Positions 439 through 30,307 are shown, counted from the stretch's first letter. The stretch is 64,000 nucleotides of DNA from Terriglobia bacterium (GCA_021325235.1 JAJPHN010000025.1:124001-188000); one strand, 5' to 3'. Numbers and translations are program-made. The notes: generated by a model from the sequence alone, not told the origin.

Positions 439-1410
439 TTACTGCCGCGGCTGGTTTTGAGTGCGTTCCTTCAGGATCTCCTCAATTTCGTTTCTGCCAA
501 CCGGGAGATCGTTCTCATTCGCCTTCAACCACTCCGTGAAGTCACGTTCGATCGGCTCCGACCATCTCGTATCGATTTGGCCCGCCGTGTATTTTTTTTC
601 GCGCAGGCGCTGATGTCCGAATACGTCGCGAAGACGCGTAATCTCCGAATACTTGACGACCTGTTCGGCCAGTTGCGGAGGGATGAAGATGACACCCCCA
701 TCTTTTCCCAGCACGACATCGCCTGGCATTACCATCACATGCCCAATGCGCGTGGGACAGTTGATGCCTACCATTGTCGAATTGAGCCGCGCGGCGGAAC
801 TGAGGGATCCAAAATGATGCGAGGGGTCATAGAACCGGACGAACGAAACAAAATTTGGCAACTCCTTCAGCCCTTCGATGTCGCGCACGGCGCCGTTGTA
901 AACGATTCCATTGCCGCTTCTGGCATAAATGGCGTTGCCGACGTTATCGCCGATGGACGGGCCATCCTGCTTCAGCTCGAAGTGATCACACACATACACG
1001 TCGCGTTGCTGCAGCATGTCGACCGGCCACGCATTTTGAGCACCGATCCGATGATCCAGCTTGCCTTGTTCCTCCACCACGCGTTGCACGTCAGGCCGCC
1101 CTGGCATCCATTCGGCAGTCAGCGCCCGGCCGACCAGAACCTTGTCCGGATGAATCACTAGCCAGCCATCTTCATACTGATGGTTGTAGCCGGCGTTCCG
1201 CAGCACGGCCCAGGCCTCTTCCAACGTGACGCTCTTCATGCGATCGAGAAGTGCTTCCGAAACTTTGGGCCGGCCATCCGCGAAGCGCTCTCCTTTCCAC
1301 TCGGGCGTATACTTGATTACGTCTTCTTTCGTGAAGAAACCTTGCTGCGGGTATGCGGCCGGAGAAAGCACGATGGCGGCGGCCATTGCGAAGAACACGG
1401 TACGTTCCAT
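439..1410 (-). CDS. RraA-family protein with a signal peptide (putative 2-oxo-acid aldolase)
   Basis: It belongs to the RraA/HMG-aldolase-like fold. Members are either RNase E inhibitors or divalent-metal aldolases that cleave 4-hydroxy-2-oxo acids. The core is visible: GDNVGNAIYA, NGIVYNGAVRD with the conserved Arg-Asp pair, and PGDVVLGKDGGVIFIP near the C-terminus. About 100 extra residues precede the core. The chosen ATG gives MERTVFFAMAAAIVLSPAAY, a typical Sec signal peptide. An in-frame start 23 codons upstream would overlap the previous gene and bury that signal. It begins 4 bases after the stop of the enolase-superfamily gene, so it is the last gene of operon 1. An exported RraA homologue cannot act on RNase E; an aldolase role on dehydrated sugar acids is inferred. 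Confidence 0.85.
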   Translation of the reverse strand: MERTVFFAMAAAIVLSPAAYPQQGFFTKEDVIKYTPEWKGERFADGRPKVSEALLDRMKSVTLEEAWAVLRNAGYNHQYEDGWLVIHPDKVLVGRALTAEWMPGRPDVQRVVEEQGKLDHRIGAQNAWPVDMLQQRDVYVCDHFELKQDGPSIGDNVGNAIYARSGNGIVYNGAVRDIEGLKELPNFVSFVRFYDPSHHFGSLSSAARLNSTMVGINCPTRIGHVMVMPGDVVLGKDGGVIFIPPQLAEQVVKYSEITRLRDVFGHQRLREKKYTAGQIDTRWSEPIERDFTEWLKANENDLPVGRNEIEEILKERTQNQPRQ

Positions 1411-1414
1411 GGGC

Positions 1415-2716
1415 TCAACTCTTCGAGGGCTCGAACCAGCCGGTACCGGGCACTTGCGCCCTGCGCGCGGCCTGCTCATTCATCTCCACGCCGATACCGG
1501 GACGGTCCGGGACCGTGATATAGCCCTCCTTGATAATTTCTCCTTCTTTCACGAAGCTCCTCCATAGATCGACATGATTGATCCAATGCCATTCGCAGAC
1601 GAGAAAATTGGGAATGGATGCGCAGACATGCGCGGTGGCCATGGTGCCGATGGGTGACACGACGCAATGGGGCGCGAACGGCACGTAGTAGGTCTGGGCG
1701 AGATTGGCGACTTTGCGGCCCTCCGATAATCCACCGACTTTCTGAAGGTCGGGCATGATGATGTCAGCCGCCTGTTTATCGAGCAGTTCTCGAAATCCCC
1801 AGCGCATATACAGGTTCTCGCCGCAGCAGATAGGCGTCTTCGTTGAATGGCGGATATCGGCCATGGCGTCGATGTCCTCTGGGGGAACAGGCTCTTCCAG
1901 CCAGAGCAACCGGTACGGTTCCACTGCGATTGCGACCCGTTTTCCGGTAGGCGCATCATAGCGCCCGTGCATGTCGACTGCCAGATCCATTTCTTTAGGA
2001 ATGGATTCGCGGGTATGTTTTACCCACGACACCATGCGGTCGATCTCGCCATTGCTCGCAGTCCAATTCACGGCATCGAAGCGAGCGGGATCACGCGCCT
2101 GATCGATATCGATTTTCATGGCTGTGAAGCCGTTCGATTGAATCCAGGGGAGTTTGCGTTCCGCTTCTGCACCGAGCGGATCTTCCATGTCGGAGTCGCA
2201 GTACATTCGGACACGATCCCGGAACTTGCCGCCGAGCAATTGATAGATAGGCAGGTGGAGCGCTTTCCCCACGAGATCCCACAAAGCGATTTCAACTCCC
2301 GTCAGGGCCGTGATGTATTGTCCGCCCTGGGCTCCGGCGAAAATACCGGCCGTGCGGAGGCGCTCCCACAGGGCATCCACATTCAGCGGATCCTTGCCGA
2401 TCAGAAAACGGCGGAAGCTGCGAACCAGCGCGGCTGTTCCGACAGCGGCGTCCGTCGACTCACCTTCCCCGATCAATCCCTGGTTGGTATAGATGCGCAC
2501 GTGCGTCTGTAGACCATGGACCATAACTTCCGCCGTGCGGATATCCGTAATCTGCAGCTTCGGGCGCTGATACGGTGAAGTGCTCTCCTCGATGGCGCGC
2601 GACAGAGCAGGAAGCGTCAACGCTCCACCCATCGCCCCTGCCGTCTGCTTTAGAAAAGATCGTCGATTCTGTTGACGCATAAGCGCTTTCTTCTCGCCTG
2701 TTGATCTGATACTCAT
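1415..2716 (-). CDS. Tat-exported enolase-superfamily (mandelate racemase/galactonate dehydratase-like) protein
   Basis: A two-domain mandelate racemase-type protein of 433 residues. It has the mobile N-terminal capping domain (about 50-160) and a barrel with Lys201-x-Asp, metal ligands Asp248 (DMH), Glu274 (LEEP) and Glu300 (GEN), and the Asp323/His350 catalytic dyad (MPDLQKVGG, APHC). All key residues for abstracting a proton alpha to a carboxylate are present, so dehydration of an aldonic acid is likely; the substrate is not readable. The N-terminus carries a twin-arginine signal (NRRSFLKQ, residues 17-24) followed by a weakly hydrophobic stretch. The first ATG overlaps the stop of the GH51 gene as ATGA, arguing for translational coupling; an internal ATG at 2680 also keeps the signal. 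Export is unusual for this superfamily. Confidence 0.88.
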   Translation of the reverse strand: MSIRSTGEKKALMRQQNRRSFLKQTAGAMGGALTLPALSRAIEESTSPYQRPKLQITDIRTAEVMVHGLQTHVRIYTNQGLIGEGESTDAAVGTAALVRSFRRFLIGKDPLNVDALWERLRTAGIFAGAQGGQYITALTGVEIALWDLVGKALHLPIYQLLGGKFRDRVRMYCDSDMEDPLGAEAERKLPWIQSNGFTAMKIDIDQARDPARFDAVNWTASNGEIDRMVSWVKHTRESIPKEMDLAVDMHGRYDAPTGKRVAIAVEPYRLLWLEEPVPPEDIDAMADIRHSTKTPICCGENLYMRWGFRELLDKQAADIIMPDLQKVGGLSEGRKVANLAQTYYVPFAPHCVVSPIGTMATAHVCASIPNFLVCEWHWINHVDLWRSFVKEGEIIKEGYITVPDRPGIGVEMNEQAARRAQVPGTGWFEPSKS

Positions 2717-4860
2717 TGCGCACGCACTAACGGAAGCTGGTAAAGCGTAACGCTGATCGGCGCAACCGGAATCGTTCGCGGAATGCTGTCCATCTGCGTT
2801 TCGTTTATTGCCACTTGCGGTTCCTGGCCAACCCGGTTCGCCGCATCCAGGTCTTTCCCGCTAAGTTGCTCGACGGTAGCTTTTCCCGCGAGCCTGCAGC
2901 CGCTCACGTTGAGATCAAACTTCTGTTCCGACTCCGTCGCGTTTACGACAGCAAGATCAAGGTACTTCTGATCGGGCGTGAGCGCGGCGAACATGTCGAG
3001 CGGATACGTGGGGCTTCCGGACCTGGTCTTCGGCTCATCGGCATAATGCTCGCTGTCCGTTGGAGGCTGCGGGGAACTGCCTGTCAGCGCAACCGGAATG
3101 GTTCCGACAAACTGGTGGTACAGCTTGAACATGAGTCCGGTCGTATTCAAGGTTGTGGCCGTAGGAGTGATGTCGAGAGTCGAAGTGCCCATGGTGTGCG
3201 CGGACATCGTAAGGAAATCGGTGTGCCGCATCATTTCGTCAAACAGCATTCCGTAAGCTAAGGTCAATTTGAGGTTCGGGCCGCCGGGTCTGCCACCGCC
3301 GAAGTAAGCGTATTCGTCGATCGACAAAAAGATTTTGTCAGGGACCATAGCGGGGAACCGGTGTTGGTAGCCCTCCCATTCTTCGGCTTTGCGACGGATC
3401 ACGTCCCCCGCCTGGCGCGCAAACTCCAGGGGTGTCGCGTCATACTTCACCCAGGCATCATCAGTAGGCGCATCGGGCGGCAGATTTTTCGCACGCTGAA
3501 CATCGAAGTGTTTACCCGGCTGCTCGTACCAGTGCTCGGCGATGCCGGAAAACGTTCCCCAGCAGTTCTTCAGTATGCCGCCCGTCCAGTCGACGTCCGA
3601 TCCGAACAGAGACTGAATATCTTCCACATGCTTGACGCGCATTTCGCCTTTCAGGAACATGGGTTCGAGCATTTTCGCCGAAGCGATGAGCGTGATGGAC
3701 GGATCCACTTTGCGCATGGCAGCGGCGAATTCGTTGTGCTTGAGAACGTAATATTTGAGATCGGTATAGCCGAGTTGGAATGTGCCCCAGGGCTCGTTAC
3801 CAATATTCCAGAATTTTACGTGGTAAGGCTCAGGATGGCCATTGCGGGCTCGCTCGGCGCCTAGGCGCGTACTCGTCGGGCCGTTGATGAACTCGACCTC
3901 TTCTGCTGCCGAATGCGCGTCTCCAAAACCGGCATTCACTGTGATGTAAGGATCTACGCCGATCAGTTTGCAAAGCGTCATAAATTCGTCCAGGCCGACA
4001 TCGTTGGTTTGCATAGCGTGCCAGGCGTAGTCAAACGTGGGCGGACGCTTGTCGATATCGCCCACACCGTTGTACCAACTCCAATCGGATAGGAAATTGC
4101 CGCCTGGCAGGCGCCACATGCCGGATTGAAGCGTGCGCAGCAATGCAATCGTGTCGGGCCGGAATCCGTCGATATTGCCCGCCGGCATTAGCGAAACAGT
4201 GCCGATGTGAAAGTCGCCAGTGCCGGTGGCGGTTATTTCGAAAATCGCGTCGTTGCTGTCGGCTCTCGCTGTGAAGCTGAGCGGATACTTTTTGTACTGG
4301 CTGCCGAGGGGTCCAAGCGAGAGGGTTTGCCGGTCATCGACACTCTTGCCCCAGATGAGAGAAACTTTGACCCGCACGCCAGGAGTGCCGCGAAGATAGA
4401 TCCGGCCAACATATTTCCTGTCCTTGAGCACACTGAGACCGGGTTGTCGAATACCATGCGGAGTGGCGGAATCCAACTCGATGCGCGGGCTCTGCTCACC
4501 AACGAACGGCCGCTCATTGTCCATCTGCACGACGCGGTCCGTTCCTACGGGAACCCATTTGCGAAGCTGCCGGAAGGGTCCATTCCGCGGCGGAGTCACT
4601 GGTTCTGTTTTCGGCGAGGAGATCGCAAAATAGAACTTCCTATCGTCCAGCATCTCCGACCAAAGACTTCGGTAGATCAACGGGCCGATGTGCTCGATGA
4701 ACATGCCGAACTCATATTTGGATACAGGTTGGGCGGTTTGCCTCGCGTCGATATTCACCACAATTCGGTTCGCCGCCGCCGCTTGGGGTTGCTGACCTGC
4801 GGCGAACGTCACTCCCAATCCGAGTGCCGCTGCAGTGAGAAGCGAACGACGGGTTTTCAT
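2713..4860 (-). CDS. exported alpha-L-arabinofuranosidase, GH51-like
   Basis: A GH51-type arabinofuranosidase of about 715 residues, which removes terminal arabinofuranose from arabinoxylan, arabinan or similar side chains. It starts with the family opening (YEFGMFIEHIGPLIYRSLWSEML). A jelly-roll-like insert follows, then the clan GH-A barrel with acid/base Glu356 in WNIGNEPWG and nucleophile Glu516 in LSIDEYAYF, and a C-terminal beta domain. The selected ATG gives MKTRRSLLTAAALGLGVTFA, a Tat-like or Sec signal. The longer start 23 codons upstream would disrupt it. Its stop overlaps the next gene's start (ATGA). It shares an operon with a secreted esterase, which fits deacylation and debranching of hemicellulose. 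Confidence 0.88.
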   Translation of the reverse strand: MKTRRSLLTAAALGLGVTFAAGQQPQAAAANRIVVNIDARQTAQPVSKYEFGMFIEHIGPLIYRSLWSEMLDDRKFYFAISSPKTEPVTPPRNGPFRQLRKWVPVGTDRVVQMDNERPFVGEQSPRIELDSATPHGIRQPGLSVLKDRKYVGRIYLRGTPGVRVKVSLIWGKSVDDRQTLSLGPLGSQYKKYPLSFTARADSNDAIFEITATGTGDFHIGTVSLMPAGNIDGFRPDTIALLRTLQSGMWRLPGGNFLSDWSWYNGVGDIDKRPPTFDYAWHAMQTNDVGLDEFMTLCKLIGVDPYITVNAGFGDAHSAAEEVEFINGPTSTRLGAERARNGHPEPYHVKFWNIGNEPWGTFQLGYTDLKYYVLKHNEFAAAMRKVDPSITLIASAKMLEPMFLKGEMRVKHVEDIQSLFGSDVDWTGGILKNCWGTFSGIAEHWYEQPGKHFDVQRAKNLPPDAPTDDAWVKYDATPLEFARQAGDVIRRKAEEWEGYQHRFPAMVPDKIFLSIDEYAYFGGGRPGGPNLKLTLAYGMLFDEMMRHTDFLTMSAHTMGTSTLDITPTATTLNTTGLMFKLYHQFVGTIPVALTGSSPQPPTDSEHYADEPKTRSGSPTYPLDMFAALTPDQKYLDLAVVNATESEQKFDLNVSGCRLAGKATVEQLSGKDLDAANRVGQEPQVAINETQMDSIPRTIPVAPISVTLYQLPLVRAQ

Positions 4861-4940
4861 AATTGCTTTCTGGCGAATCGATTTGTCGTGATCATGCTGG
4901 ACGATCTTTCTTGCATGAAATGGCCGCATACCGTGTGACC

Positions 4941-6158
4941 TCAGCGAAAAAGCCGCGGGGCGAAATCATACAAACACCGCCGCCATGTTAACCATTCGTG
5001 AGCCGTGCCGGGCGATTCGAAGTACACGTTGTGGATGCCCGCTTTGGTTAGCGCCTCGCTGAAATTCTTTGTGCCGGGGCCTTCTGCAGAGCCGATACCC
5101 AGGAACAAGAGCTTTACGTCTTTGTTAAATGCTGCCGGATCCGCGAAGGTCCCGCCGCAGGAGGTCTTCGGATCGAAAGCCGTGTCTCTTCCCGCGCAGC
5201 TGCCGCTGAATCCGCCTAGGTAAGCAAACTTGTCCAGGTGCTGGAGTCCGGTTTTAAAGGTTTGCGCTCCACCCATCGACAATCCGGCCATAGCGCGGTT
5301 CTCGCGTCCCGTAAGTACGCGGTATGTGTGCTCAGCCATTGGAATCAGATCGGTGAACATCATTTCGGTGAAGGTTTCGCCCCAGTTCGCCGGAAACATG
5401 GGACGGTTGCGGCCGGCTGGCGGTCGCGTTCCGAGCGGCGGCGGAACATCCGCCGGAGAGCGCCTCGCAATGATGCTGCGAGCCGTGTAGAGGCCGTCAT
5501 CCTCACCGGGCTTAACCGCGTTCAGGTTATCCATCACGATGATCATCGGCTTGGCCTTGTTGGCCGCAATCAGGTTATCCATGATGAACTCCACATGCCC
5601 CTGCGTGGACCATCCCTGTTCGTTTTCTCCCCAACCGTGCAGCAGATATAGCACCGGGTACCGCGTTTGGGGATTGGCCAGGTAATTCGGCGGCGTGTAA
5701 ACAAAGCAGCGCCGCCAATTCGCAGTTACTTTTGAAAAGTACCAGCGCTCGCTCACCTCGCCGTGCGGCACCTCTTTCGCCGCATAGAAATCGGCGTCCG
5801 GCGCCGGGATTTCGATGCCGCTGTTATCCCATCCTGAGCCGAAGAACGTGCGCGTCGCCGGGTCGGCCATAACCCCGCCATCCACTACGAGGCTGTAGTA
5901 GTGGAATCCGACCACCTGTGGCGGTATGGTGACGGTCCAAAGCCCGTCCGCACCGCGCGTCATGTCGTGTACTCCTCCCAGGCGCACCTGTACTTTCTGC
6001 GCGTCGGGCGCAGCTACCCGAAAAGCGACTCGATTATCGGGATAAACGCACGGATACGGCGCTCCGGGTATGTTGAGCGAGGACGGCTTGCATTCTCCGG
6101 CTGTTTGTCCCCAGCACGCTCCGCAAGCCAATAGCGTAAAGATAAGCGCTGATTTCAT
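4941..6158 (-). CDS. secreted esterase with early-set N-terminal domain (enterochelin/feruloyl-esterase type)
   Basis: 405 residues. A short Sec signal (MKSALIFTLLACGACWGQ) is followed by an immunoglobulin-like early-set (CBM48/isoamylase-N-like) domain at about 35-120 and an esterase-D type alpha/beta hydrolase. The oxyanion-region motif LYLLHGWGENEQGW is near 170-183, the nucleophile Ser294 is in AGLSMGG, and His387 in GTAHEW is the likely catalytic His. Proteins of this build deacylate plant xylans (acetyl or feruloyl groups) rather than enterobactin. It lies 80 bases after GH51 would begin and 38 bases downstream of the enolase gene in operon 1. A paralogue with the same layout is at 43706-44827. 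The start at 6158 was chosen over 6257 because it restores the signal peptide. Confidence 0.85.
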   Translation of the reverse strand: MKSALIFTLLACGACWGQTAGECKPSSLNIPGAPYPCVYPDNRVAFRVAAPDAQKVQVRLGGVHDMTRGADGLWTVTIPPQVVGFHYYSLVVDGGVMADPATRTFFGSGWDNSGIEIPAPDADFYAAKEVPHGEVSERWYFSKVTANWRRCFVYTPPNYLANPQTRYPVLYLLHGWGENEQGWSTQGHVEFIMDNLIAANKAKPMIIVMDNLNAVKPGEDDGLYTARSIIARRSPADVPPPLGTRPPAGRNRPMFPANWGETFTEMMFTDLIPMAEHTYRVLTGRENRAMAGLSMGGAQTFKTGLQHLDKFAYLGGFSGSCAGRDTAFDPKTSCGGTFADPAAFNKDVKLLFLGIGSAEGPGTKNFSEALTKAGIHNVYFESPGTAHEWLTWRRCLYDFAPRLFR

Positions 6159-6195
6159 GAGTGCTCCTTCAAGAGTCTTTCTTCTGACGTCGCGG

Positions 6196-7518
6196 TTACC
6201 ATTCCGCCACTGATCCGTCCTCGTGAAAAACGCGAGCCATGGGCCGAGTACCGCCAAACGGATATTTCGCCAGGCTCGCCTCCGAGAGTTCGAACCCCAA
6301 ACCGGGCTTTTCGGAAAGAGGAAACCGGCCGTTGACCATGCGCATCGCCGGAAACCCGAGCCACTCTTCCCAGATCTTGTCTACAGCTCGGGGCTTGACT
6401 TGTCCACAGATCTCCTGAACCAGAAAGTTGGGCATAGCCGCGTCTACCTGAAGCGTTGCGAGCCCGCCAAGGGGGCCTTCGCAGGCATGCGGCGCCATCG
6501 AAATGGAAGAAACGTTCGCGATAGCCGCGACCTTCCACAGCGCCGTGATTCCGCCCACGTGGTTGATATCGGTCTGAAGAATATCGATGATGCCCATTTC
6601 GATCAGCTCACGGCACCCGTAGGCCGCAATCAGCCGCTCGCCCGTGGCGATTGGAGTGGTGGAACGCCGCGCAATTTTTGCCATCGCCTGAACGTTTTCA
6701 GGAGCGCATGGCTCCTCCACAAACAGCAAATTCAGCGGCTCCACTTCCTTCACGATGATGGAAGCAACGCTGGGGCTGGTCTTGGCGTGGAAGTCTACTG
6801 CGATGTCGATGTCGGGGCCCAGAGTCTCTCGCAGCAGTTGGATCGATTTGATGGCGCGGTCGATCTTCGGTCTGCGCTCGAGCCATTCGTAATAACCGGG
6901 AATGCCGCCCTTGACGCACGTGATGCCCTGATGCTGCGCGGTCTGCCGGATCTCGGCAAGCCGCTCGCGGTTGGCGCCATCCACATGGTAGTAACCGCGG
7001 ACACCGCGAGCATCGAACGGTCCACCGAGCAGCTTGTAAACCGGCATTCCCAGCGCTTTGCCGCGAATGTCCCATAACGCCTGATCGATGCCCGAGATGG
7101 CGGAGCCGATCACCGGGCCTGCGCGGTAGAACGAATGAACGTACATCGACTCCCAGATATGCTCCACCTGCATCGGGTCCGCGCCGATCAGGAAGTCATG
7201 GAAATCGTTGATGCAGGCCATTACGGCACCCGCTTTGCCCTCGAGTGTTCCTTCGCCCCAGCCGACGAGGCCCTGATTCGTCTCGAGCTTGACAAATACA
7301 TATGGGCGGTCCGACTTGGGATTCGGAGAAACGCCAAATACCTTGAGGCCGGTGATTTTCAGGCCAGAGCTTACGCTGGCGAAGGCATCGAGACCAGCCG
7401 GCTTTGTCTCCGGAAGAAAGGAACAGCCGCATGCCTCGATTGCGGAGCGCGAATGGTTCTTCGTGCCCGCCATCAGAACACCAGCAGACCCCAATGCGAG
7501 GAAATTTCTACGACGCAT
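6196..7518 (-). CDS. Tat-exported enolase-superfamily sugar-acid dehydratase
   Basis: 440 residues from the ATG at 7518, beginning MRRRNFLALGSAGVLMAG, a twin-arginine signal. The barrel keeps the metal ligands Asp242 (VDFH), Glu268 (VEEP) and Glu294 (ATGE) and the Asp317/His344 dyad (TDINHVGG, APHAC), as in galactonate dehydratase and mandelate racemase relatives. Lys203 in CVKGG sits at the second-strand base position. Its start overlaps the stop of the upstream degenerate paralogue by 11 bases. It shares low but evident similarity with the protein at 1415-2716. Sequence alone does not settle which sugar acid it uses. Tat export suits a folded Mg-dependent enzyme acting in the periplasm. Confidence 0.87.
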   Translation of the reverse strand: MRRRNFLALGSAGVLMAGTKNHSRSAIEACGCSFLPETKPAGLDAFASVSSGLKITGLKVFGVSPNPKSDRPYVFVKLETNQGLVGWGEGTLEGKAGAVMACINDFHDFLIGADPMQVEHIWESMYVHSFYRAGPVIGSAISGIDQALWDIRGKALGMPVYKLLGGPFDARGVRGYYHVDGANRERLAEIRQTAQHQGITCVKGGIPGYYEWLERRPKIDRAIKSIQLLRETLGPDIDIAVDFHAKTSPSVASIIVKEVEPLNLLFVEEPCAPENVQAMAKIARRSTTPIATGERLIAAYGCRELIEMGIIDILQTDINHVGGITALWKVAAIANVSSISMAPHACEGPLGGLATLQVDAAMPNFLVQEICGQVKPRAVDKIWEEWLGFPAMRMVNGRFPLSEKPGLGFELSEASLAKYPFGGTRPMARVFHEDGSVAEW

Positions 7519-8578
7519 GGTATTTCTCGACCGCGGACTCATTCACGGTAATCCCGAGACCCGGAGCGGTGGTCAGTTGAAGAAAGCCGTCCTTGCCGGT
7601 CTCCAATGCCGGAGAGACAATTTCGCGCCGCATCGCACGGTCTTCCTCTTCTGCCGGAAGCGGTACCTGCTGGATGAAAAAATTCGGAATACTCGCGGCT
7701 AAGTGAATCGCAGCAGCCGTTCCGACCGGGCCTCCGCTTGGGCGCGGCGCAACTGCAACGTAATACGTCTCGGCGAGCGCAGCCATTCGTCTTACGCCGC
7801 TGATTCCGAAAATGCCGATCTCCGGCCGGACCAGATCGATCAGCCCTTCGCGCAGCAGGGTTTGGAACACGCCGGGATCGTCGATTCCCGCGCCGAACGC
7901 TAACGGAACAACGGTTTCATCGCCAATTTTTCTCAACGCCTCGATATTTGAATGAGCGCAGGGTTCGTCGAACCACAGCGGGTATTTCGATTCCAATGTT
8001 CTGGCAACAGAGGCCGCATCTCCAGGAGTGAGCGAGCCGTTTCCTATGACGATGAAATCGCGATCCGTGGGAACGGCATTCGCGAGTGCCAGTATCTGAT
8101 TTTGATACGCCTTACCCTGATTCCGCGATGCCGCCCTGGGAAGCTCGATCACGCTTACCGGAAAATCTTCATGAGGCCAACTGTACGCGCGCACCTTGTT
8201 CCGCGTAGGCCCTCCCAGAATCCGGTAGACCGGCGCATTCGCCGCCTTGCCGAGAATGTCCAGGCAGGCAATATCGAGCGCAGCTCGGTACGGACTTGCG
8301 GGTGGAATCGTTGCATACGCATGTGCCGGCTTGCCGGTCCAGGCAGCCTGCAGAGTTTTGATATCCGCGTCTGGATCATGGGCGCACTCTCCCCAGCCAA
8401 TCCATCCGGCTCGCGTGGTTACTCGCAGAAGCGCGTACTGATTCTTCGAGACAGGCTCTCGAACAGAAAATCCGTGGATTTCTGTGATGTCCAGTGCATC
8501 CGGTTTGACCACGTCCGCGACTGCGAGTGCAAGATGCCTCGACAGGCGTGCTCTGCGTTCCCTAATGATTCGATGCAT
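7508..8578 (-). CDS. degenerate enolase-superfamily protein, probable pseudoenzyme
   Basis: 356 residues with the overall mandelate racemase-type fold (N-terminal cap, then GKAANAPVYRILGG, then barrel). The active-site positions are altered. The Asp metal ligand region reads IGNGSL, the EEP motif is FDEP, the third ligand GE-N is FGAG, and the catalytic His in the P-H motif is Arg (APRPSGG). No base Lys is visible on the second strand (YQNQIL). The structural motifs remain, and the reading frame is clean, so it is not a random pseudogene. No signal peptide is seen and an in-frame stop lies 8 codons upstream. It is the first gene after the TonB receptor (25-base gap). A binding, regulatory or heteromeric partner role is inferred. 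Confidence 0.8.
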   Translation of the reverse strand: MHRIIRERRARLSRHLALAVADVVKPDALDITEIHGFSVREPVSKNQYALLRVTTRAGWIGWGECAHDPDADIKTLQAAWTGKPAHAYATIPPASPYRAALDIACLDILGKAANAPVYRILGGPTRNKVRAYSWPHEDFPVSVIELPRAASRNQGKAYQNQILALANAVPTDRDFIVIGNGSLTPGDAASVARTLESKYPLWFDEPCAHSNIEALRKIGDETVVPLAFGAGIDDPGVFQTLLREGLIDLVRPEIGIFGISGVRRMAALAETYYVAVAPRPSGGPVGTAAAIHLAASIPNFFIQQVPLPAEEEDRAMRREIVSPALETGKDGFLQLTTAPGLGITVNESAVEKYHAS

Positions 8579-8603: not shown

Positions 8604-11600
8604 TCAGAACACGTATTTCAGCCCCAATTGAATTTGGCGCATGGCGATGGAGGTGGCCGTGACCACGCCGAAGTTCTCGTGAGCGGCTGTCGACGGCAGC
8701 CCCGGTTGCGCCACGCCGGCCAGGATGTTCAAATTCGGCATCTGCCAGTTCGGGTGGTTCAGAACGTTGAACGCTTCGAACCGGAACTGAAGCGCATGTC
8801 CTTCCTTGTATGGCATACGGAATTCTTTGTGCACTTCGGCATCGAATCCAATGATTCCCGGCCCTTCGATCGAGTTGCGCGCCGCATTGCCGAATTGTCC
8901 TGGCGGAGCCTCGGTGAAGGCAGCCAGATTCCAATAGCGAGAAGGCGTCGGGTTGTTCAAATAGGGGCTGACACCCGTTGCGTCGGGCCGGTCATATCCG
9001 CCAGCGCCTGTACTGGCGTTGTCTACGCCGCCAATGGTCAGTGTTCCGGGCATCCCGGTTTGTAGCGTGAGAATCCCGCCCGCTTGCCAGCCGCCAATGA
9101 TCGCGTTCGCTACCGAATTGGTGATGTTCAAGAGCTTGCCTCTTCCTACTGGCAGATCGTAGAGCACGGAGGTCACCATGCGATGCCGCGTGTCGAACGC
9201 CGAGAGCCCGCGCTCGCAGGCTAGGCAATAGCTATTTTGCGGATATAACGTGTCGTAGCCCTGGTTGCGAATGCCACTCGTGGTATCGATCGATTTCGAC
9301 CAGGTGTACGAGCCAATGACGCTTACTCCCTGGCTGAACCGGCGCGTTAGTTTCAGACTGAGCGAGTTGTAATCGCCGTTACCGCCATCCTGTACATATT
9401 GAATGTTGCTGAAGCCGGGAAATGGCATGCGCGAACGAACGCTGCCTGTCGTTCCGGGAATGGCCTGATTCACATCCTGGAAACCCTGCAGATGCCGGCT
9501 CGCCCCGCCCAGATACCCGGCTTCCAAAGCCCAGTTCGGCGTCAACTGCCGCTGCAAATTAAAGAGGTACTGCATGGCGTAGGTGGTGTTGTGGCTCGGC
9601 GCCATCGCGTACGCATACGGCGAAGGCACCTTTGCAACCGTGCTGCTCCCGCCCGGGACTGCGTTTCCGTAGAACAGGCTCGGCACGCCGGGAGTCGACG
9701 TTAAGGTGACACGCCCGGCGATGTTGCGTGCCAGGTCGAAGTACGCGTTGGCAATGTCCTGGTTATAGAAGATTCCCCAGCCGGCGCGTATGACCGTCTT
9801 CGCATTGGGTGAGAAAGCAATTCCTACCCGCGGAGCAAAATCCCGGTACGACGTATGCATCAACTGGTCCGGGAGTGTTCCGTTGTTGCATTCCGCGCTG
9901 ACGGTGGTCCAGCGGATGTTGATCGGCGGAGGTCCCGCGTACGGATCTGTGCAATTGCCCTGGCGCAGCATGTATGGTGTATTCGGGGCATGCGGGACTG
10001 CGTAGATGTGCGGCACCGATACCGTAAACAGGTTGTTCAGCGTGTCGGTCCAGGGTGGGGTTAGTTCGTAGCGCAGCCCCAGGCTCAATGTCAGGCGTGT
10101 GGTGATCTTCCATGTGTCATCGATGAAAGCAGCCACGGCGTTGCGCTGGAATTTCGCATTCGCCAGAGCGACCGCCACGGTCGATTGGTAGATATCGCCC
10201 AGCAGAAATTCGGCAAACGCATCGCCGCCCGTCTTGCTCGAACTCTGCGTTGCATTCGGCTGGAAGGCAAACTGGCCGCGCGAAAACTGGTTGCCGATCT
10301 GGTTGAAGTTCTGCCGGTTGTATTCAAAACCAAAGCGAAGCGTGTGCTTGCCGCGAATCCATGACACGTTATCGACGGCCTGCAGTGTGTTGTCGTTTAT
10401 GGCATAGGGACCGTCCTGCGTGTCGCCGATCGCATTGAAACCATCTCCGGCAAAGGAAACGAAAGGAACACCCCAGGCAACCGGTGCGCCCGGTTGTAAA
10501 TTCGGGATGCCCAACGCGGAAACCGTGTCGATGTTGTATGCCGAATACGTGCCCAAGGAATTGCTCAGCCGCGTATAGCCGAAACGGGCTTCGTTCACCA
10601 GCGTCGGCGAAAGCGTGCGCGTATTCGTCCCGAGATACTGCTCGTAATTGGTAAGAATCTTGCTCCCGGTGATGCTGATTCCGGTTGAGGCCTGGTTCTC
10701 ATCGCCCCAGCTATACCGCCCGCTCCACTGTGATTTTGCCGATTCGACAAAATCCATCCTGAGCGTGAATTCGTCACGATTATTGGGCGAGGAGTTCATC
10801 TGGGTATAGTTGTTCGCGATGCCCGGTAGATTCGCAGGAACGTAATAGTTGAGAAACTTCCGTGAGATCGGATCGATCCGGCTGGAAGGAATGCGGTTAC
10901 CGGGGAAAGCGGTCTTGGTCCCTCCGTTTACGGCTGTAGCCGGATCGTAGATCGTTGTGCCGAGCGCGCTGAAGTCTCCGGTGAACATGGCGGCGGTCGG
11001 GACGGAATAGATGGCCTGCGAACTCTGGCGCTGTGTTTTCCATTCATCGTTCGCCATGAAGAACAGCCGGTTACGCAGATCCAGCAGTTTCGGAATGCGC
11101 ACCGGACCGTCGATTTCAAAGCCATAATCATTCCATTTGAACGGCGATTTAACCGGATGCGTGGCGGTGAATGCGTATGGCACCGCATCGAACTTGTCAT
11201 TGCGGAGAAATTCGAAGAGCGCTCCGTGGTAGGCGTTGCCGCCGGATTTGGTAACGACGTTAATCTGCGTCGACTCGTGGCCGAACTCAGCGGGGTAGAC
11301 GCCGGTCTGAACCTTGAATTCCTGAATGGCGTCGATCGAGGGAAGCACCACGTAGGTGGAGAAGTCGGGATCGGTATTCGCGACGCCATCCAGCGTGAAA
11401 TAGTCGAACATGATGCGGTTGCCGCCAGCCGAGATGGACTGCGAGGCGCGGTCACCTCCCAGCCGGCTCGCCGCTTGTCCGGACGAAGCCGAGAGCGTGT
11501 TCGTGTTCGCCGCCAGAGCCACCAGGCTCAGGTAATTGCGGCCATTCAGCGGAAGTTGCGTGACACCTTGGTTGCCAATGACCGTGCCAAGTGAAACGTT

Positions 11601-11993
11601 CTCTGCCTGCAGCATCTCGGCCGAGGCGGAGACTTCCACTCGTTCATTCACCTGCCCGACTTCGAGGGTGAAATCGAGGCGAACCGTCTGCTGAACCTGG
11701 ACTTGTACATTGCTGCTATTGGCAGTCTTGAAAGACGCTTGTTCCACGCGGACGTTGTAAAAGCCCGGTTCCAGTGCCGGGAAGGTGTAATCCCCGGAAC
11801 CGGTCGTCACGGTTGTTCGCACCGCGTTTGTGGCGACGCTGGTGAGGAATACCTTGGCACCGGCCATGGGCGCCCCGCTCGGATCGCTGACGTGCCCGGT
11901 TATTTCGCCGAATGTCTGCGAGTGCAAAGGCACGCCTGCGAGAACTGCAGATATCGTGAACCAGAACAGCAGTCGCCTCAGTTGTAGCTGCAT
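8604..11993 (-). CDS. Oar-like TonB-dependent outer-membrane receptor, operon 1
   Basis: About 1129 residues. The sequence holds a Sec signal (LFWFTISAVLAGVPLHSQ), a carboxypeptidase-regulatory-like/CNA-B domain (about 20-110, ITGHVSDPSGAPMAGAKV), a plug with the acidobacterial hallmark QLPLNGRNYLSLVALAANT, and a long barrel ending in the outer-membrane signature QIQLGLKYVF with terminal Phe. No SusD-like lipoprotein follows, as expected for this family. It heads operon 1, so uptake of the oligosaccharide or polysaccharide fragment released by the GH51 and esterase enzymes is inferred. The ATG at 11993 gives the best signal; an upstream alternative adds 11 residues. The promoter region is shared with the divergent malectin-type regulator and contains a palindromic site. 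Confidence 0.9.
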   Translation of the reverse strand: MQLQLRRLLFWFTISAVLAGVPLHSQTFGEITGHVSDPSGAPMAGAKVFLTSVATNAVRTTVTTGSGDYTFPALEPGFYNVRVEQASFKTANSSNVQVQVQQTVRLDFTLEVGQVNERVEVSASAEMLQAENVSLGTVIGNQGVTQLPLNGRNYLSLVALAANTNTLSASSGQAASRLGGDRASQSISAGGNRIMFDYFTLDGVANTDPDFSTYVVLPSIDAIQEFKVQTGVYPAEFGHESTQINVVTKSGGNAYHGALFEFLRNDKFDAVPYAFTATHPVKSPFKWNDYGFEIDGPVRIPKLLDLRNRLFFMANDEWKTQRQSSQAIYSVPTAAMFTGDFSALGTTIYDPATAVNGGTKTAFPGNRIPSSRIDPISRKFLNYYVPANLPGIANNYTQMNSSPNNRDEFTLRMDFVESAKSQWSGRYSWGDENQASTGISITGSKILTNYEQYLGTNTRTLSPTLVNEARFGYTRLSNSLGTYSAYNIDTVSALGIPNLQPGAPVAWGVPFVSFAGDGFNAIGDTQDGPYAINDNTLQAVDNVSWIRGKHTLRFGFEYNRQNFNQIGNQFSRGQFAFQPNATQSSSKTGGDAFAEFLLGDIYQSTVAVALANAKFQRNAVAAFIDDTWKITTRLTLSLGLRYELTPPWTDTLNNLFTVSVPHIYAVPHAPNTPYMLRQGNCTDPYAGPPPINIRWTTVSAECNNGTLPDQLMHTSYRDFAPRVGIAFSPNAKTVIRAGWGIFYNQDIANAYFDLARNIAGRVTLTSTPGVPSLFYGNAVPGGSSTVAKVPSPYAYAMAPSHNTTYAMQYLFNLQRQLTPNWALEAGYLGGASRHLQGFQDVNQAIPGTTGSVRSRMPFPGFSNIQYVQDGGNGDYNSLSLKLTRRFSQGVSVIGSYTWSKSIDTTSGIRNQGYDTLYPQNSYCLACERGLSAFDTRHRMVTSVLYDLPVGRGKLLNITNSVANAIIGGWQAGGILTLQTGMPGTLTIGGVDNASTGAGGYDRPDATGVSPYLNNPTPSRYWNLAAFTEAPPGQFGNAARNSIEGPGIIGFDAEVHKEFRMPYKEGHALQFRFEAFNVLNHPNWQMPNLNILAGVAQPGLPSTAAHENFGVVTATSIAMRQIQLGLKYVF

Positions 11994-12183: not shown

Positions 12184-13734
12184 ATGATCCCCGAACAACA
12201 GCGCAGAATGTACGGGGTCGAACAGGCGGAACTCGGCGAGGCCCGCGAGCAGGCTGTTCTTACGGAACTCAACCGTCTACTGGACAGTGCCGCCTTCCGC
12301 ACGAGCAGAAGGTGCAGGGAGTTCCTGAAGTATGTCGTCGAGCACACCATCAAGGGACCTCGGGGCACTCTCACAGAACGCGCTATCGGCGTAGAGCTCT
12401 TTCAACTTCCCGAAGACTTCGACACCGGACAACACACGATTGTCCGCGTGACCGCAAACGAAGTGCGGAAAAAGCTTGCTCAACATTATCTGGCCCAGAA
12501 CGGCACTCACCACGGCGTCAGAATCGATCTGCCGCCGGGCTCCTATAGCGCCGAATTCCGGTGGGAAACTCCGCTCGAGGAAACGCCCATTCCGCCGCGC
12601 GCTGAAAGGAGGCTTAATCGTGGCCTGATTGCTTCGATCACCGCTGGCCTTGCGATTCTCCTTGCTCTGTTCCTCGTGCCGGGTCACGCGATGAAGCGCT
12701 TAAATGACCGTAGCGCTACTCCCGCTCTCGTTCCCGCTCCTCTTCCCAATACTTCGCCCGCCGTGGCAAGCCTGCGCATGATCGTGGGTTCCACATCTTC
12801 TTACGTAGATCGCAGCGGGCAGACATGGGGGCCGGATCGCTTCTTCTCCGGCGGTTCTGTACTCGTTCACCCAGCGGAGAGAATTTTCCGCACGCTCGAT
12901 CCCGATATTTACCGGCATGTGCGGAATGGCGACTTCCGCTACGACATTCCGCTCCAGCCCGGCTCCTATGAGCTTCATCTCCACTTCGCGGAAACCGAAC
13001 TCGCCGATTTCATCAGTGCGGAATCGAGTGGCGAGGGCCAGCGCTTATTTCGCGTCTCTGCCAATGGCAAACGGATTCTGGACTACTTCGACGTGGTCGC
13101 CGATGCGGACGGTTCCAACACATCCGATGAACGAGTGTTCCGGAGCATCTCACCAGCCGAAGATGGATTCCTTCACTTGAGCTTCAGCTCTTTGAGAAGC
13201 ACGGCGATCCTGAGTGGAATCGAGCTCCTGCCGGTCGGTCCGGGGAAGGTGAGGCCCATTCGAATTCGAGCCGGTTGGCCCACCTCCTGGCAGGATGCCG
13301 CCGGAGACGAGTGGCGGGCTGATTCCTATTTTCTGGGGGGCAATGCCCTGGTCCGCACCACCAATCCGGCTCGCGACAGCAACTCTCCGGACCTCTCGTT
13401 ATACGCGAGCGAACGCTGGGGACATTTCTCTTACGCCCTGCCCGTCGCCGACGGACGCTATCGCCTTACTTTGAAATTCTGCGAGGGCCATTACGGACGT
13501 CATAACACCGGTGTAGGTGGGTCGGGAAGCCGCGTCTTTGATGTGTATTGCAACGGCGTTGCCCTATTGAGAAACTTCGACATCTATAGGGAAGCAGGTG
13601 GCGAGGGCCGCCCCCTCGATCGATCGTTTTCCGGTATCAGCCCTACTGCACAGGGTAAACTTGTGCTCACTTTCGTTCCGGTTAACGGAATGGCATGCGT
13701 CAACGGCATCGAGGTCGTTGAAGACTCAAACTAG
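12184..13734 (+). CDS. predicted membrane-bound regulator with winged-helix-like N-terminus and two malectin-like domains
   Basis: 516 residues. The first about 130 form a conserved acidobacterial domain: FRTSRRCREFLKYVVEH, TERAIGVELF, then VRVTANEVRKKLAQHY and IDLPPGSYSAEF. Its helix-helix-wing layout resembles the OmpR/ToxR winged helix, an inference from pattern only. One membrane segment follows (about 143-161, IASITAGLAILLALFLV). The remainder is two tandem malectin-like carbohydrate-binding modules (about 200-350 and 360-510), each with the family G-x-F-x-Y and L-x-L-x-F-x-E strands. The topology would put the helical domain in the cytoplasm and the malectin pair in the periplasm. It is divergent from the operon 1 receptor, so a sugar-sensing one-component regulator is inferred. 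A truncated relative is at 23372-24245. Confidence 0.7.
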   Translation: MIPEQQRRMYGVEQAELGEAREQAVLTELNRLLDSAAFRTSRRCREFLKYVVEHTIKGPRGTLTERAIGVELFQLPEDFDTGQHTIVRVTANEVRKKLAQHYLAQNGTHHGVRIDLPPGSYSAEFRWETPLEETPIPPRAERRLNRGLIASITAGLAILLALFLVPGHAMKRLNDRSATPALVPAPLPNTSPAVASLRMIVGSTSSYVDRSGQTWGPDRFFSGGSVLVHPAERIFRTLDPDIYRHVRNGDFRYDIPLQPGSYELHLHFAETELADFISAESSGEGQRLFRVSANGKRILDYFDVVADADGSNTSDERVFRSISPAEDGFLHLSFSSLRSTAILSGIELLPVGPGKVRPIRIRAGWPTSWQDAAGDEWRADSYFLGGNALVRTTNPARDSNSPDLSLYASERWGHFSYALPVADGRYRLTLKFCEGHYGRHNTGVGGSGSRVFDVYCNGVALLRNFDIYREAGGEGRPLDRSFSGISPTAQGKLVLTFVPVNGMACVNGIEVVEDSN

Positions 13735-26408: not shown

Positions 26409-27317
26409 TTAATGATCCACACGCGAAATACGACAGTAATGCTCGGGCTGGCCTGGAATGCCTAAGTTCAGATGAAAAAGCTGGCCGCCGACGTTTGTCT
26501 TCTGCGCGTAGCCGGGCGGCGCGAGTACGAGTGCATCTGGCGTGGCCGCGGTCGTGATGAATATATCCGTCATGTCGGGGCCGCCGAAAGCAAGTGATGA
26601 TGTCTGCTCCGCGGGAACGGCTATTCTGCGTTCGAGCTTCCCATCGGGATCATAGCGGCAGATACAGGCGCCGAACCATTGCGCTGACCAGACGAAGCCT
26701 TCGGCATCAACCGTTAAACCATCCGGGATGCCTTCGGTCGCGGGAACCTGAACAAAGACGCGGCGACGGCCGACTTGTCCTTGACCGGCGTCGTAATCGT
26801 ATGCGTAGATGACCCGGTCCACCGAATCGGTGAAGTACAGTGTGCGACCGTCCCCCGTGAAGCCGAGGCCGTTTGCTAAACCGAAGCCACTATCGAGAAC
26901 GCGAGCGCCACCGTCACGCTCAATCACGTATAGGTTCCCGCGCGGATAGTTGCTGGTGCCATCGAAAAAGGTTGAACCTGCCAGCAGTCGGCCTGCTGGG
27001 TCGGCAATCGCATCGTTTATCGCTAATGTCTTCCCTTCGTGAGAGGTCGCAATGGCGAGAGCTCCTTCGTTCTCCGTCCAAAGCCAGACACCCTTGGCGC
27101 CGGCGATCACGACTTGGCCATCTTCGGTCAGGGCAAGAGCGCTCGTGGGAACACCCGGCACCAGCATTTGGATCGCGCGAGACTGCCAATTGTAGATATG
27201 CAGCCGCTCCGTGATAATGTCGACCCAATACAAACAATTGCGGCGGGCGTCCCAGAGCGGCCCTTCGCCGCATTGGTCATGCGTCTCGGCGAGAATCGTA
27301 ATGTCACTCGGATTCAT
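26409..27317 (-). CDS. SMP-30/gluconolactonase-family lactonase
   Basis: 302 residues, no signal peptide. A six-bladed beta-propeller with the family's residues at the expected places: Glu18 (GEGPLWD), Asn101 (INDA), Asn149 (LANGL) and Asp199 (IPDG), matching the metal and substrate positions of regucalcin-type lactonases. It would hydrolyse an aldonolactone to the acid. The start ATG overlaps the stop of the transporter gene (ATGA); the open frame runs 105 codons further upstream only as a shadow of that gene. In operon 3 it sits with an SDR dehydrogenase and a dehydratase, completing an oxidative sugar route. Confidence 0.88.
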   Translation of the reverse strand: MNPSDITILAETHDQCGEGPLWDARRNCLYWVDIITERLHIYNWQSRAIQMLVPGVPTSALALTEDGQVVIAGAKGVWLWTENEGALAIATSHEGKTLAINDAIADPAGRLLAGSTFFDGTSNYPRGNLYVIERDGGARVLDSGFGLANGLGFTGDGRTLYFTDSVDRVIYAYDYDAGQGQVGRRRVFVQVPATEGIPDGLTVDAEGFVWSAQWFGACICRYDPDGKLERRIAVPAEQTSSLAFGGPDMTDIFITTAATPDALVLAPPGYAQKTNVGGQLFHLNLGIPGQPEHYCRISRVDH

Positions 27318-28264
27318 AAAGGAAGAGAAGCTTCGGGGTGTGAGATCTGCGGTTTTTCCAGGCTGGTAAGAACGGCTGTCGCGATGACGACGATTGCGCC
27401 ACCAACCAACTGCAGCGGCCGCAGCCGTTCGTGAACGGTGAGAACGGAAAATAGCAGCCCGAAGAATGGCAGCAGGTAAATCGATACCGAGATCTGTCCG
27501 ACATCGAGCCGGTTGAGAACCCACATCCAGAGGACCATGGCGATGCCCCACGAGAGAAAGCCCAGAACGGCAACTGCAATCCACACACGCACCGAATAGC
27601 CGGAAACGGAGTAGACCGGTTTTGCCTCCCAAATTGCGGAAATCAGAGCGCAGAAGAAGCCACCTGACACGTAACTCCAGACAAGCACCTCGATTTCACT
27701 GAATCGCTCGAGCAGCGACTTTCCGTAAGCGTTATAGAACGCGCTACCCGCTGCGCCGAGAAAGATTGCGAAATTGCCCGCGAGCAGGCTGCGGCTGAAC
27801 GAGGCGCCGCGAACATCGTTAATGGAAACAAGAACCGTTCCCGCCAGCCCCAGCCCTAACGTAAGGATACGTAAGCGAGTAATGCGCTCTCCCAGCAGAA
27901 GTGCGCCCATGACGGTCATCAGAAGAGGAATCGTCAGGGAGAGAATCGCTCCATTGGACGCGGAGGAATGCGCGATGCCCCAGGCTAACAGAACGGATGG
28001 GGGCACGATACCAAGCAGGCCCATCAAAACGAAGCCGATGATCGCCCTCCGGCCCCAGTGCGTGGTCGATCCCGGTTCGCGTCGCTTCTGCCGCAGCAGA
28101 AACGGAACGAGGAGGGCGCATGCAAAGACAAATGTCCAGAAGTTCAGGGCGCCTGCCTCCATCTGGTCGCCGGCGATTTTGTAGGCGGGGTACTGCGCAG
28201 CCCAGAGCACGTTGACGATGATCAGGAAAGTGAAATTGACCCAGCGCGACTTGCTCGTGTTCAT
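27314..28264 (-). CDS. EamA/DMT-superfamily inner-membrane transporter
   Basis: 316 residues with ten hydrophobic segments in two halves, each matching the EamA repeat (first half NVLWAAQYPAYKIAG and GALNFWTFVFACALLVPFLL; second half VAVLGFLSWGIAMVLWMWVLNRLDVGQISVSIYLLPFFGLLFS). Family members export or import small metabolites, including sugars and sugar acids in some cases. It overlaps both neighbours by ATGA (SDR stop/start upstream, lactonase downstream), so it belongs to operon 3. Whether it imports the pathway's substrate or exports a product cannot be read. Confidence 0.85.
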   Translation of the reverse strand: MNTSKSRWVNFTFLIIVNVLWAAQYPAYKIAGDQMEAGALNFWTFVFACALLVPFLLRQKRREPGSTTHWGRRAIIGFVLMGLLGIVPPSVLLAWGIAHSSASNGAILSLTIPLLMTVMGALLLGERITRLRILTLGLGLAGTVLVSINDVRGASFSRSLLAGNFAIFLGAAGSAFYNAYGKSLLERFSEIEVLVWSYVSGGFFCALISAIWEAKPVYSVSGYSVRVWIAVAVLGFLSWGIAMVLWMWVLNRLDVGQISVSIYLLPFFGLLFSVLTVHERLRPLQLVGGAIVVIATAVLTSLEKPQISHPEASLPL

Positions 28265-29022
28265 AACGCAAGGCCGGCCAGCAGTCCGCCGTCGACCACC
28301 AGTTGTGTTCCCGTAATGTACGACGCTTCGGGCGACGCCAGGAAATACACCGCGTGGGCGACGTCTTCGGGCAGTCCAAGCCGACGGAGCGGGATCTTCG
28401 CTGCAAGAGACGAGAGCACGCCTTGCGGGTCGGACTCGCGTGCGACGGCTGTCTCCATCATTCCCGTCTGAGTTGCTCCGGGGCAGACGGCATTCACACG
28501 GACGCCTTCGGGAGCATAATCGAGCGCTATTCCGCGCGTTAGTCCGAGCAGCCCGGATTTCGATGCTGCATATACGGAGATTTGCTTCTCGGTCGCAATG
28601 GCCTGAACGGAAGAGGTGAACACAATGGAGCCGCGCGAAGCTTTAAGATGCGGCAGAGCGTACTTTGCGCACAAGAACGCGCCACGCAGGTTGGTATCGA
28701 TGATGGCCGACCAATCCGAGAGGCTGTATTCCTCGGCCGATGCGTAACGCTCAATGCCGGCATTCGCGCAGAGTACGTCGATGCGCCCGAGGCGTTCCAT
28801 GGCGAATGCGACGAGCGCCTCGATTTCGTTCGGTTCGCGCATATCGGCATTACGAAAGGTAGTGCCAGGCAGTTGCGCGGCGAGAGCCTCGCCACGCTCT
28901 GAGTTGATATCGGCGATGATGACCCGATCGCCGGCCATGCAGAAGCGCGAGGCGATAGCGCGCCCGATTCCGTAAGCGCCACCCGTGACAATAACCACGC
29001 GCGCATCAGGCATGACCGCCAC
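28261..29022 (-). CDS. short-chain dehydrogenase/reductase, probable sugar dehydrogenase
   Basis: 253 residues of the classical SDR fold: TGGAYGIG nucleotide motif (13-20), NAG (about 88-90), Ser138, and Tyr151-x3-Lys155, with PG near 180 and a C-terminal DGG. Asp38 after the second strand (IIADINS) favours NAD over NADP. In company with an SMP-30 lactonase and an enolase-superfamily dehydratase it most likely oxidises a free sugar to its lactone, as galactose, fucose, rhamnose or arabinose dehydrogenases do. The start could also be the internal ATG at 29013. The stop is coupled to the transporter's start. Confidence 0.88.
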   Translation of the reverse strand: MAVMPDARVVIVTGGAYGIGRAIASRFCMAGDRVIIADINSERGEALAAQLPGTTFRNADMREPNEIEALVAFAMERLGRIDVLCANAGIERYASAEEYSLSDWSAIIDTNLRGAFLCAKYALPHLKASRGSIVFTSSVQAIATEKQISVYAASKSGLLGLTRGIALDYAPEGVRVNAVCPGATQTGMMETAVARESDPQGVLSSLAAKIPLRRLGLPEDVAHAVYFLASPEASYITGTQLVVDGGLLAGLAL

Positions 29023-29056
29023 CCTGGTAGACAGTTATCGAAACGAGCATATGTGT

Positions 29057-30298
29057 TCAGTGGCGGCCCAACGCGGGCTCGCGTTCGACAGGATGGCGCT
29101 TCCGGTCGCGATCACGCCATGCCTTTTCAGCAGCTTCTTTGAAACGCTCGAGAGCATCGCGATTAAGTGACACGCCCAAACCGGCTTTGCGCGGCAGGTC
29201 GAGAATGCCGTTCTCCATCTTGAGTTCGTCCTGAACCAATTCACGGCGCAGCGCAGATTCGCACAACTCAGCCGGCAAAAATTCGATGAAGGCACATTGC
29301 GCCGTCGCGGCCGACAGGTGAGCAGCAGCAGCGATCGATATGCCGGATTTCCAGAGGTGCGGCACAATAGTGAGTCCTCGCGCCGTTGCCAGATCGCACA
29401 CGCGCTTGGCTTCGCTCATGCCGCCAACGCGCCCTACATCGGGCTGAGCGACCTGCACCTTCCCGCGATCCATCAGGTCCAGGAATTCGAAGCGCGTTGC
29501 GAGCCACTCGCCCGCGGCAATCGGAATGGGCTGTTTGGTTGCAACTTCGGCATAACCGGCGAGATCATCCGAGGGCAGCGGCGTTTCGAGGAAGAAGAGA
29601 TTGAACTCCTGCCACGGACGAATTGCCTTGAGACACGTTTCAGCATTCGGGAACGCGTACTGCACATCTACCATGAGCACAAAGTCCTCACCAATCGTAC
29701 GTCGCACTTCCGCGATCAGCTCCGTCATCTCTTCGTAGCTGGCATCGAGCGAGCGGTGGCGATACGGGCCTGAAGGTGTCACTTCGATTTTCGCTGCCTT
29801 GAATCCGAGCGATTGCGCACGCCGCGCCCAGTCGATCAGAGACTCACGATAGGCATTGAAATTGTCGACCTCGGGTTGGAGCGAAGCATAGGGTGTGATG
29901 AAAGGCTTGGCCGCACCGCCCAGAAACTCGTAGCAGGGCTTGTCCGCAGCTTTGGCGCGGAGATCGTGCAGCGCCATATCCAATGCGCCGAGCGCGTGGA
30001 TAACTGCACCGCGCCGTCCGTTCATGGCTGATCCCGTATAGAGCTTCTGCCAAAGCGATTCCACCGCAAGCGGGTCCTCGCCGAGCAACATGTCTTCCAG
30101 GCTAAGGCCCATCGTATGCGTTCCGGGCGCTTCGATGCAGGCGCGTGCGATCCACGGATTGACATCCGATTCTCCAATACCGGTGAGACCCTCATCGGTA
30201 TGGATTTCCACGACGATATCGTCCTGGGACGAACTGGTAGCCCCGGCATCGTAGCCGGGATCGAGCAGGACGTGACAATCGATGCGTGTAATTTTCAT
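29057..30298 (-). CDS. enolase-superfamily sugar-acid dehydratase (cytoplasmic)
   Basis: 413 residues, without a signal peptide. The full catalytic set is visible: Lys170 (KAAKIE), metal ligands Asp211 (VDVQ), Glu238 (LETP), Glu264 (AAGEW), and dyad Asp287 (AQPDVGRVGG) with His314 (VPHLW). This pattern places it with mandelate racemase-subgroup dehydratases for aldonic acids such as rhamnonate, fuconate or galactonate. The ATG at 30298 is used; a TTG 3 codons upstream, directly after the GH42 stop, is an alternative. It shares operon 3 with dehydrogenase and lactonase genes, so it probably yields a 2-keto-3-deoxy acid. Confidence 0.88.
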   Translation of the reverse strand: MKITRIDCHVLLDPGYDAGATSSSQDDIVVEIHTDEGLTGIGESDVNPWIARACIEAPGTHTMGLSLEDMLLGEDPLAVESLWQKLYTGSAMNGRRGAVIHALGALDMALHDLRAKAADKPCYEFLGGAAKPFITPYASLQPEVDNFNAYRESLIDWARRAQSLGFKAAKIEVTPSGPYRHRSLDASYEEMTELIAEVRRTIGEDFVLMVDVQYAFPNAETCLKAIRPWQEFNLFFLETPLPSDDLAGYAEVATKQPIPIAAGEWLATRFEFLDLMDRGKVQVAQPDVGRVGGMSEAKRVCDLATARGLTIVPHLWKSGISIAAAAHLSAATAQCAFIEFLPAELCESALRRELVQDELKMENGILDLPRKAGLGVSLNRDALERFKEAAEKAWRDRDRKRHPVEREPALGRH

Positions 30299-30307
30299 GA
30301 GGAGCAA

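Follow-up and report, generated by a model that had tools for sequence, protein, structure and literature searches.

In a 64,000-nucleotide stretch from a Terriglobia bacterium (GCA_021325235.1, JAJPHN010000025.1:124001-188000; hereafter the window), we found an operon whose products include enolase-superfamily and RraA-like enzymes that, judging by their leaders, are very probably exported. Aldonate dehydration and the cleavage of keto-deoxy acids are textbook cytoplasmic steps. We lean towards the reading that this operon serves the utilisation of feruloylated arabinan- or arabinoxylan-type hemicellulose or pectin, with a cofactor-free dehydration and cleavage of aldonates in the periplasm. 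The operon consists of seven co-directional minus-strand genes, which are closely spaced or slightly overlapping (Table 1); an 11-nt overlap links the genes of EnoC and EnoB, and those of EnoA and the RraA-like protein are separated by 4 nt. The family assignments of the products are backed by Pfam. A first-pass annotation of this DNA had placed the operon at 439-8578 and had described five consecutive products with a Sec or twin-arginine translocation (Tat) leader. The open reading frames, strand, order and leaders of these five (an RraA-like protein, EnoA, a GH51 protein, an esterase and EnoB; 439-7518) could be read directly from the sequence as described. However, the region encodes three enolase-superfamily proteins instead of two, as EnoC, which has no clear leader, had been overlooked, and the operon continues further into a gene for a TonB-dependent receptor. 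The genome is a draft of 5.03 Mb, of which the nearest named relatives are metagenome-assembled genomes (MAGs) of Bryobacteraceae/Bryobacterales; from these relatives we infer the phylum Acidobacteriota.

Read from the sequence, the leaders of the RraA-like protein (MERTVFFAMAAAIVLSPAAYPQ) and the esterase (MKSALIFTLLACGACWG) are of the Sec type, those of EnoA (MRQQNRRSFLKQTAGAMGGALTLPALSRA) and EnoB (MRRRNFLALGSAGVLMAG) are of the Tat type, and that of the GH51 protein (MKTRRSLLTAAALGLGVTFAAG) is Tat-like. Leaders were called with a heuristic script, which also gave a call for 10% of internal 60-mers after shuffling and for 53% of the genes neighbouring related loci (9% as strict Tat). As a single leader-like call is thus weak, conservation was tested among orthologues. 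The counts refer to distinct orthologues, mainly from GTDB genomes and with the copy of the window included, and these are kin sequences, not independent trials. The leaders of EnoA and EnoB have the features of Tat substrates, namely an RR-x-hydrophobic motif in the n-region, a moderately hydrophobic h-region and a small-x-small cleavage site; the motif was present in 42/42 EnoA and 30/31 EnoB sequences. In addition, Tat leaders were seen in each of five more EnoA proteins (60-70% identical) that come from other families and classes of the phylum (47/47 in total). The leader of the RraA-like protein was kept in 22/22 orthologues (21 called Sec, one Tat), that of the esterase in 4/4 and that of the GH51 protein in 5/5. 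Close relatives without leaders, named earlier as the finding that would speak against export, were looked for among these orthologues and not found. Shortly after the Tat leader, all 31 EnoB orthologues harbour a CxC motif (in the window within 7518-7400, the EnoB N-terminus), which is found in none of the 42 EnoA sequences; a role in disulfide formation or metal binding might be considered.

The leaders could be non-functional in vivo, leaving the enzymes in the cytoplasm as usual, since the leader calls are heuristic and localisation is read from the sequence alone. Yet in three families virtually no orthologue lacks the RR motif or leader. Moreover, the leaders are N-terminal extensions that are missing from the PDB homologues and from the sole leaderless EnoA and RraA neighbours found, in an Actinomycetota MAG (L031; EnoA 54%, RraA 28% identity), and we consider a cytoplasmic location highly improbable. 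The export of enolases and RraA proteins appears to be a habit of this lineage, because leaders also occur elsewhere in the own genome, of the RR type in L006, L007 and L008 (the last recognised by eye and missed by the script) and of the Sec type in L011 and L012. In the same genome, leaders are missing from the enolase-superfamily members L002, L003 and L004, which served as controls, and from L013, a protein of the RraA family. A second pair, of an RraA protein with a Sec leader and an enolase with an RRRM leader (41% and 31% identical to those of the window), lies on another contig of this genome (L134:6400-12174), convergent with a TonB-dependent receptor gene.

EnoB scored 343.6 bits against the NCBIfam galactonate dehydratase equivalog PRK14017 and thereby passed the cut-off of 311. 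PRK14017 was also the best model for EnoA, at 263.6 bits and thus under the cut-off; the two proteins are 35% identical. In a joint alignment, the catalytic positions of the MR subgroup of the enolase superfamily were all kept in EnoA (43/43) and EnoB (30/30), namely the beta-2 Lys, three acidic metal ligands (Asp/Glu/Glu), the His of the DxH motif and the Asp-His dyad. In score and residues EnoB therefore resembles D-galactonate dehydratase (DgoD), to which EnoA is related, while it differs by its Tat leader, its CxC tail and its tie to a dead paralogue. Known DgoD enzymes are cytoplasmic. The exported enolases might instead be cycloisomerases, epimerases or lyases that act on oligosaccharide ends, uronates or anhydro-sugars, and not dehydratases of free aldonates. 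The superfamily is functionally diverse, the gene contexts of EnoA vary, the title of its best matching structure (2qq6) assigns no function, and in fold EnoC comes closest to an anhydrogalactonate cycloisomerase. We regard this as quite unlikely, as EnoB exceeds the galactonate dehydratase cut-off, both proteins retain the DxH and Asp-His residues typical of dehydratases, and there is a pairing with a partner of the aldolase fold.

EnoC, on the other hand, has lost these residues. Among 31 orthologues, the beta-2 Lys was present in none, the third metal-binding Glu in one (mostly replaced by Arg or Ala) and the base His in four. Its score against PRK14017 was 144.9 bits, under the cut-off of 311. 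The fold is retained, with a predicted local distance difference test (pLDDT) score of 72 for the model and Foldseek E-values of about 1e-17 to MR/MLE enzymes. A frame-shifted active enolase was rejected as an explanation, since the gene is intact and conserved in the 31 sequences. No leader was called in 26 of the 31; an arginine-rich tail, RRxRL...APQAA, is conserved in most sequences, and its hydrophobic region is charged or very short. EnoB directly follows EnoC in 32 of the 33 listed loci (two entries being the window's own gene), and the exception lies at a contig end. Of 200 genomes sampled from the order, 86 carry EnoC; in a sample of 297 genomes from the whole phylum it was found just twice, in the genome of the window itself and in another. 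From these sequences, EnoC is most likely a non-catalytic partner tied to EnoB, as the subunit of a hetero-oligomer. Leaderless Tat partners are known to hitchhike, as in hydrogenases and formate dehydrogenases, where the leaderless subunit is likewise encoded beside its Tat-bearing partner (PMC10924467). Those are redox complexes, whereas EnoC is an enolase pseudoenzyme and its complex with EnoB is putative. By this analogy, the most natural reading would be that EnoC hitchhikes on EnoB; alternatively, it may be a cytoplasmic chaperone for EnoB or have an independent role. We propose only tentatively that the dead, apparently leaderless EnoC assembles with EnoB in the cytoplasm and is then co-exported as a hitchhiker or retained as a proofreading chaperone. 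If so, an exported sugar-acid dehydratase would have its own dedicated enolase pseudoenzyme in EnoC. It is a deeply conserved pseudoenzyme, the role of which is directly testable.

The predicted structure of the RraA-like protein (pLDDT 81.5) matches the RraA/HMG aldolase fold (3noj, 5x15). Its Asp155, Arg176 and Asp177 align with Asp102, Arg123 and Asp124 of the LigK-type HMG/CHA aldolase 3noj, so that the equivalents of these site residues are present, Asp102 being presumably part of the site. In 20 sequences Arg176 and Asp177 were invariant and Asp155 nearly so. In the HMG/CHA aldolase, Arg123 is essential for enolate stabilisation and Asp124 binds the metal (PMC5065237). The protein scored 38.4 bits against the HMG/CHA aldolase equivalog, far under its cut-off of 304.5, and we therefore describe it as probably aldolase-like and not as a member of that family, from which it also differs by its predicted export and by a C-terminal extension kept in the orthologues. 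With such a score, the enzymes could be exported and act on sugar acids while the RraA-like protein dehydrates and decarboxylates (or hydrolyses) the keto-deoxy acid, the product entering the cytoplasm via an organic-anion transporter. The RraA-like FlDet of the oxidative alginate pathway (via 4-deoxy-L-erythro-5-hexoseulose uronate, DEHU) is such a dehydratase/decarboxylase, acting on 2-keto-3-deoxy-D-glucarate; the main text of that report names no periplasm, signal peptide or Tat, and the pathway has no enolase (PMC8563752). Transporters of the D-galactonate major facilitator superfamily (MFS) type or FAH-family proteins are also neighbours in relatives. Yet the aldolase site retains its Asp and Arg-Asp, and an AldA-type aldehyde dehydrogenase adjoins EnoA-RraA in one relative (L023), and we hold this scheme to be somewhat unlikely.

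The GH51 protein aligned with 3ug3 (E 1e-45) over a region spanning NIGNEPWG with the GNE acid/base motif, and its membership of GH51 is supported by Pfam, with the ASD1 domain over and the C-terminal domain slightly under the cut-off. The esterase matched 6mot (1e-111) across both domains, a CBM48-like N-domain and a CE1 domain with the GLSMGG serine, as in CE1-CBM48 enzymes. In sequence and catalytic motifs the two resemble enzymes of xylan utilisation loci, namely CE1-CBM48 feruloyl esterases and GH51 arabinofuranosidases; the difference is that here both stand in one operon with predicted exported acid-sugar dehydratases and an RraA-like protein.

In the pathway that we favour, the TonB-dependent receptor would import oligosaccharides across the outer membrane, and, as inferred from their families, the esterase would strip feruloyl groups and the GH51 protein would free L-arabinose. 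A putative aldose dehydrogenase encoded outside the operon would make the aldonate, EnoB and/or EnoA, exported by Tat in a folded state with metal, would dehydrate it to a 2-keto-3-deoxy acid, and the RraA-like protein would cleave this acid in a retro-aldol reaction to pyruvate and an aldehyde. These products would cross the inner membrane, followed by NAD-dependent oxidation inside. Enolase and RraA chemistry needs a divalent metal only and neither NAD nor ATP, and the steps proposed for the periplasm are exactly those requiring just this metal. What is observed comprises the leaders and their conservation, the families, the catalytic residues and the gene linkage; the step order, the substrate and the choice of an aldolase over other RraA chemistry are inferred. 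L-arabinonate is our tentative candidate for the substrate, because GH51 would free L-arabinose, EnoB is galactonate-dehydratase-like, and L-arabinonate and D-galactonate have the same C2-C4 configuration; L-fuconate or another aldonate is possible.

That sugar acids are the substrates is supported by the family scores and catalytic residues of EnoB and EnoA and by organic-anion MFS or AldA-type neighbours in some relatives. A D-galactonate-transporter-type MFS protein (under the subfamily cut-off) adjoins the cluster in L016, L017 and L032, an MFS_1 protein does so in L019, and the AldA-type enzyme of L023, upstream of EnoA-RraA, scored over its cut-off. In L128 and L132, aldehyde dehydrogenases adjacent to EnoA proved to belong to the proline pathway and were not counted. 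The periplasmic sugar-acid pathway suggested in the first-pass annotation is thus supported in part: export held through leader conservation, and an action on sugar acids is made plausible by family and catalytic residues, with the substrate and the RraA reaction being putative. EnoC, a conserved pseudoenzyme without a clear leader, was not part of that suggestion. Several points weigh against our pathway. Besides the other activities possible for RraA proteins, no AldA over the cut-off was found in the own genome, and no aldose dehydrogenase or lactonase is encoded in the operon. Moreover, the context of EnoA-RraA includes an upstream GH29 fucosidase in L024 and a sulfatase in L137; therefore, the substrate need not be arabinonate and may differ between loci. 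A glucose/sorbosone dehydrogenase gave one distant match in the own genome and none in the operon. Many pyrroloquinoline quinone (PQQ)-propeller dehydrogenase-like proteins, with 27 PF01011 stretches, are encoded on other contigs of the genome (e.g. L141-L148) and none in the operon; they are possible candidates for periplasmic aldonate sources. In L096, a PQQ/cytochrome c protein lies behind EnoC-EnoB. An aromatic pathway, from ferulate through a LigK-like RraA protein and a muconate cycloisomerase, was rejected, as the scores are far under the cut-offs of those families; according to Pfam, no ring-cleavage gene is among the genes of the operon.

The operon of the window appears to join two modules, EnoC-EnoB-esterase and TonB-dependent receptor-GH51-EnoA-RraA, judging by the arrangements in relatives. 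The receptor, EnoA, RraA and GH51 genes recur with a malectin-domain gene in L124, from another genus, where the receptor (75% identical) stands at the head of EnoA-RraA-GH51. GH51 also accompanies EnoA-RraA in L032 and in L033, the cultured relative Occallatibacter savannae, from which part of EnoA was recovered. The CE1 esterase is found with EnoC-EnoB in L057 (75% orthologue) and L097 (71-72% orthologue). EnoA and RraA are adjacent in many relatives, and in L017 EnoA, RraA, EnoC and EnoB are all on one contig.

As had been supposed, a word-matched search of the open-access literature found no description of an exported enolase/RraA pathway. The component families are known; as far as this literature tells, the new elements are the predicted shift of these families together to the outside of the inner membrane and the conservation of an enolase pseudoenzyme. 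If the pathway is correct, an abundant soil phylum would convert sugars to small acids and aldehydes ahead of inner-membrane transport, which would change the genome-based prediction of hemicellulose carbon uptake, and the automated labels 'mandelate racemase' and 'RraA family' would assign the wrong compartment.

Table 1. Genes of the operon and the divergent neighbouring gene, with positions in the window.
Feature	Position	Strand	Details
RraA-like protein, class II pyruvate-aldolase fold	439..1410	-	ATG 1410; Sec leader about 1348-1410; PF03737 54.3 bits (cut-off 24.5)
EnoA, MR/MLE acid-sugar dehydratase-like	1415..2680	-	ATG 2680; Tat leader about 2594-2680; PF13378/PF02746; best PDB match 2qq6
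GH51-type alpha-L-arabinofuranosidase-like	2713..4860	-	ATG 4860; Tat-type leader; PF22848 above cut-off
CBM48-CE1 feruloyl-esterase-like	4941..6158	-	ATG 6158, Shine-Dalgarno GAAGGAG; Sec leader; full-length match to 6mot, 7b5v
EnoB, D-galactonate-dehydratase-like enolase	6196..7518	-	ATG 7518; Tat leader, then conserved CxC; PRK14017
EnoC, enolase-superfamily pseudoenzyme without clear hydrophobic leader	7508..8578	-	PF13378 118.6 bits
TonB-dependent receptor, opening the operon; contains a CarboxypepD_reg domain	8604..11993	-	PF25183, PF13620, PF00593
Divergent protein, one membrane segment (read from sequence) and two malectin domains	12184..13734	+	PF11721, two stretches

The divergently encoded malectin-domain protein looks like a candidate transmembrane glycan sensor or regulator; its counterpart in L124 (11245-12825) adjoins the related TonB-dependent receptor cluster. 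Further along the window, a second minus-strand cluster (26409-36050) encodes a leaderless enolase-superfamily protein, a short-chain dehydrogenase/reductase, an SMP-30 gluconolactonase, a drug/metabolite transporter-type permease, a Tat-bearing GH42 protein and a TonB-dependent receptor, the reductase and the permease being assigned by reading the sequence only. This cluster apparently has a conventional cytoplasmic layout.

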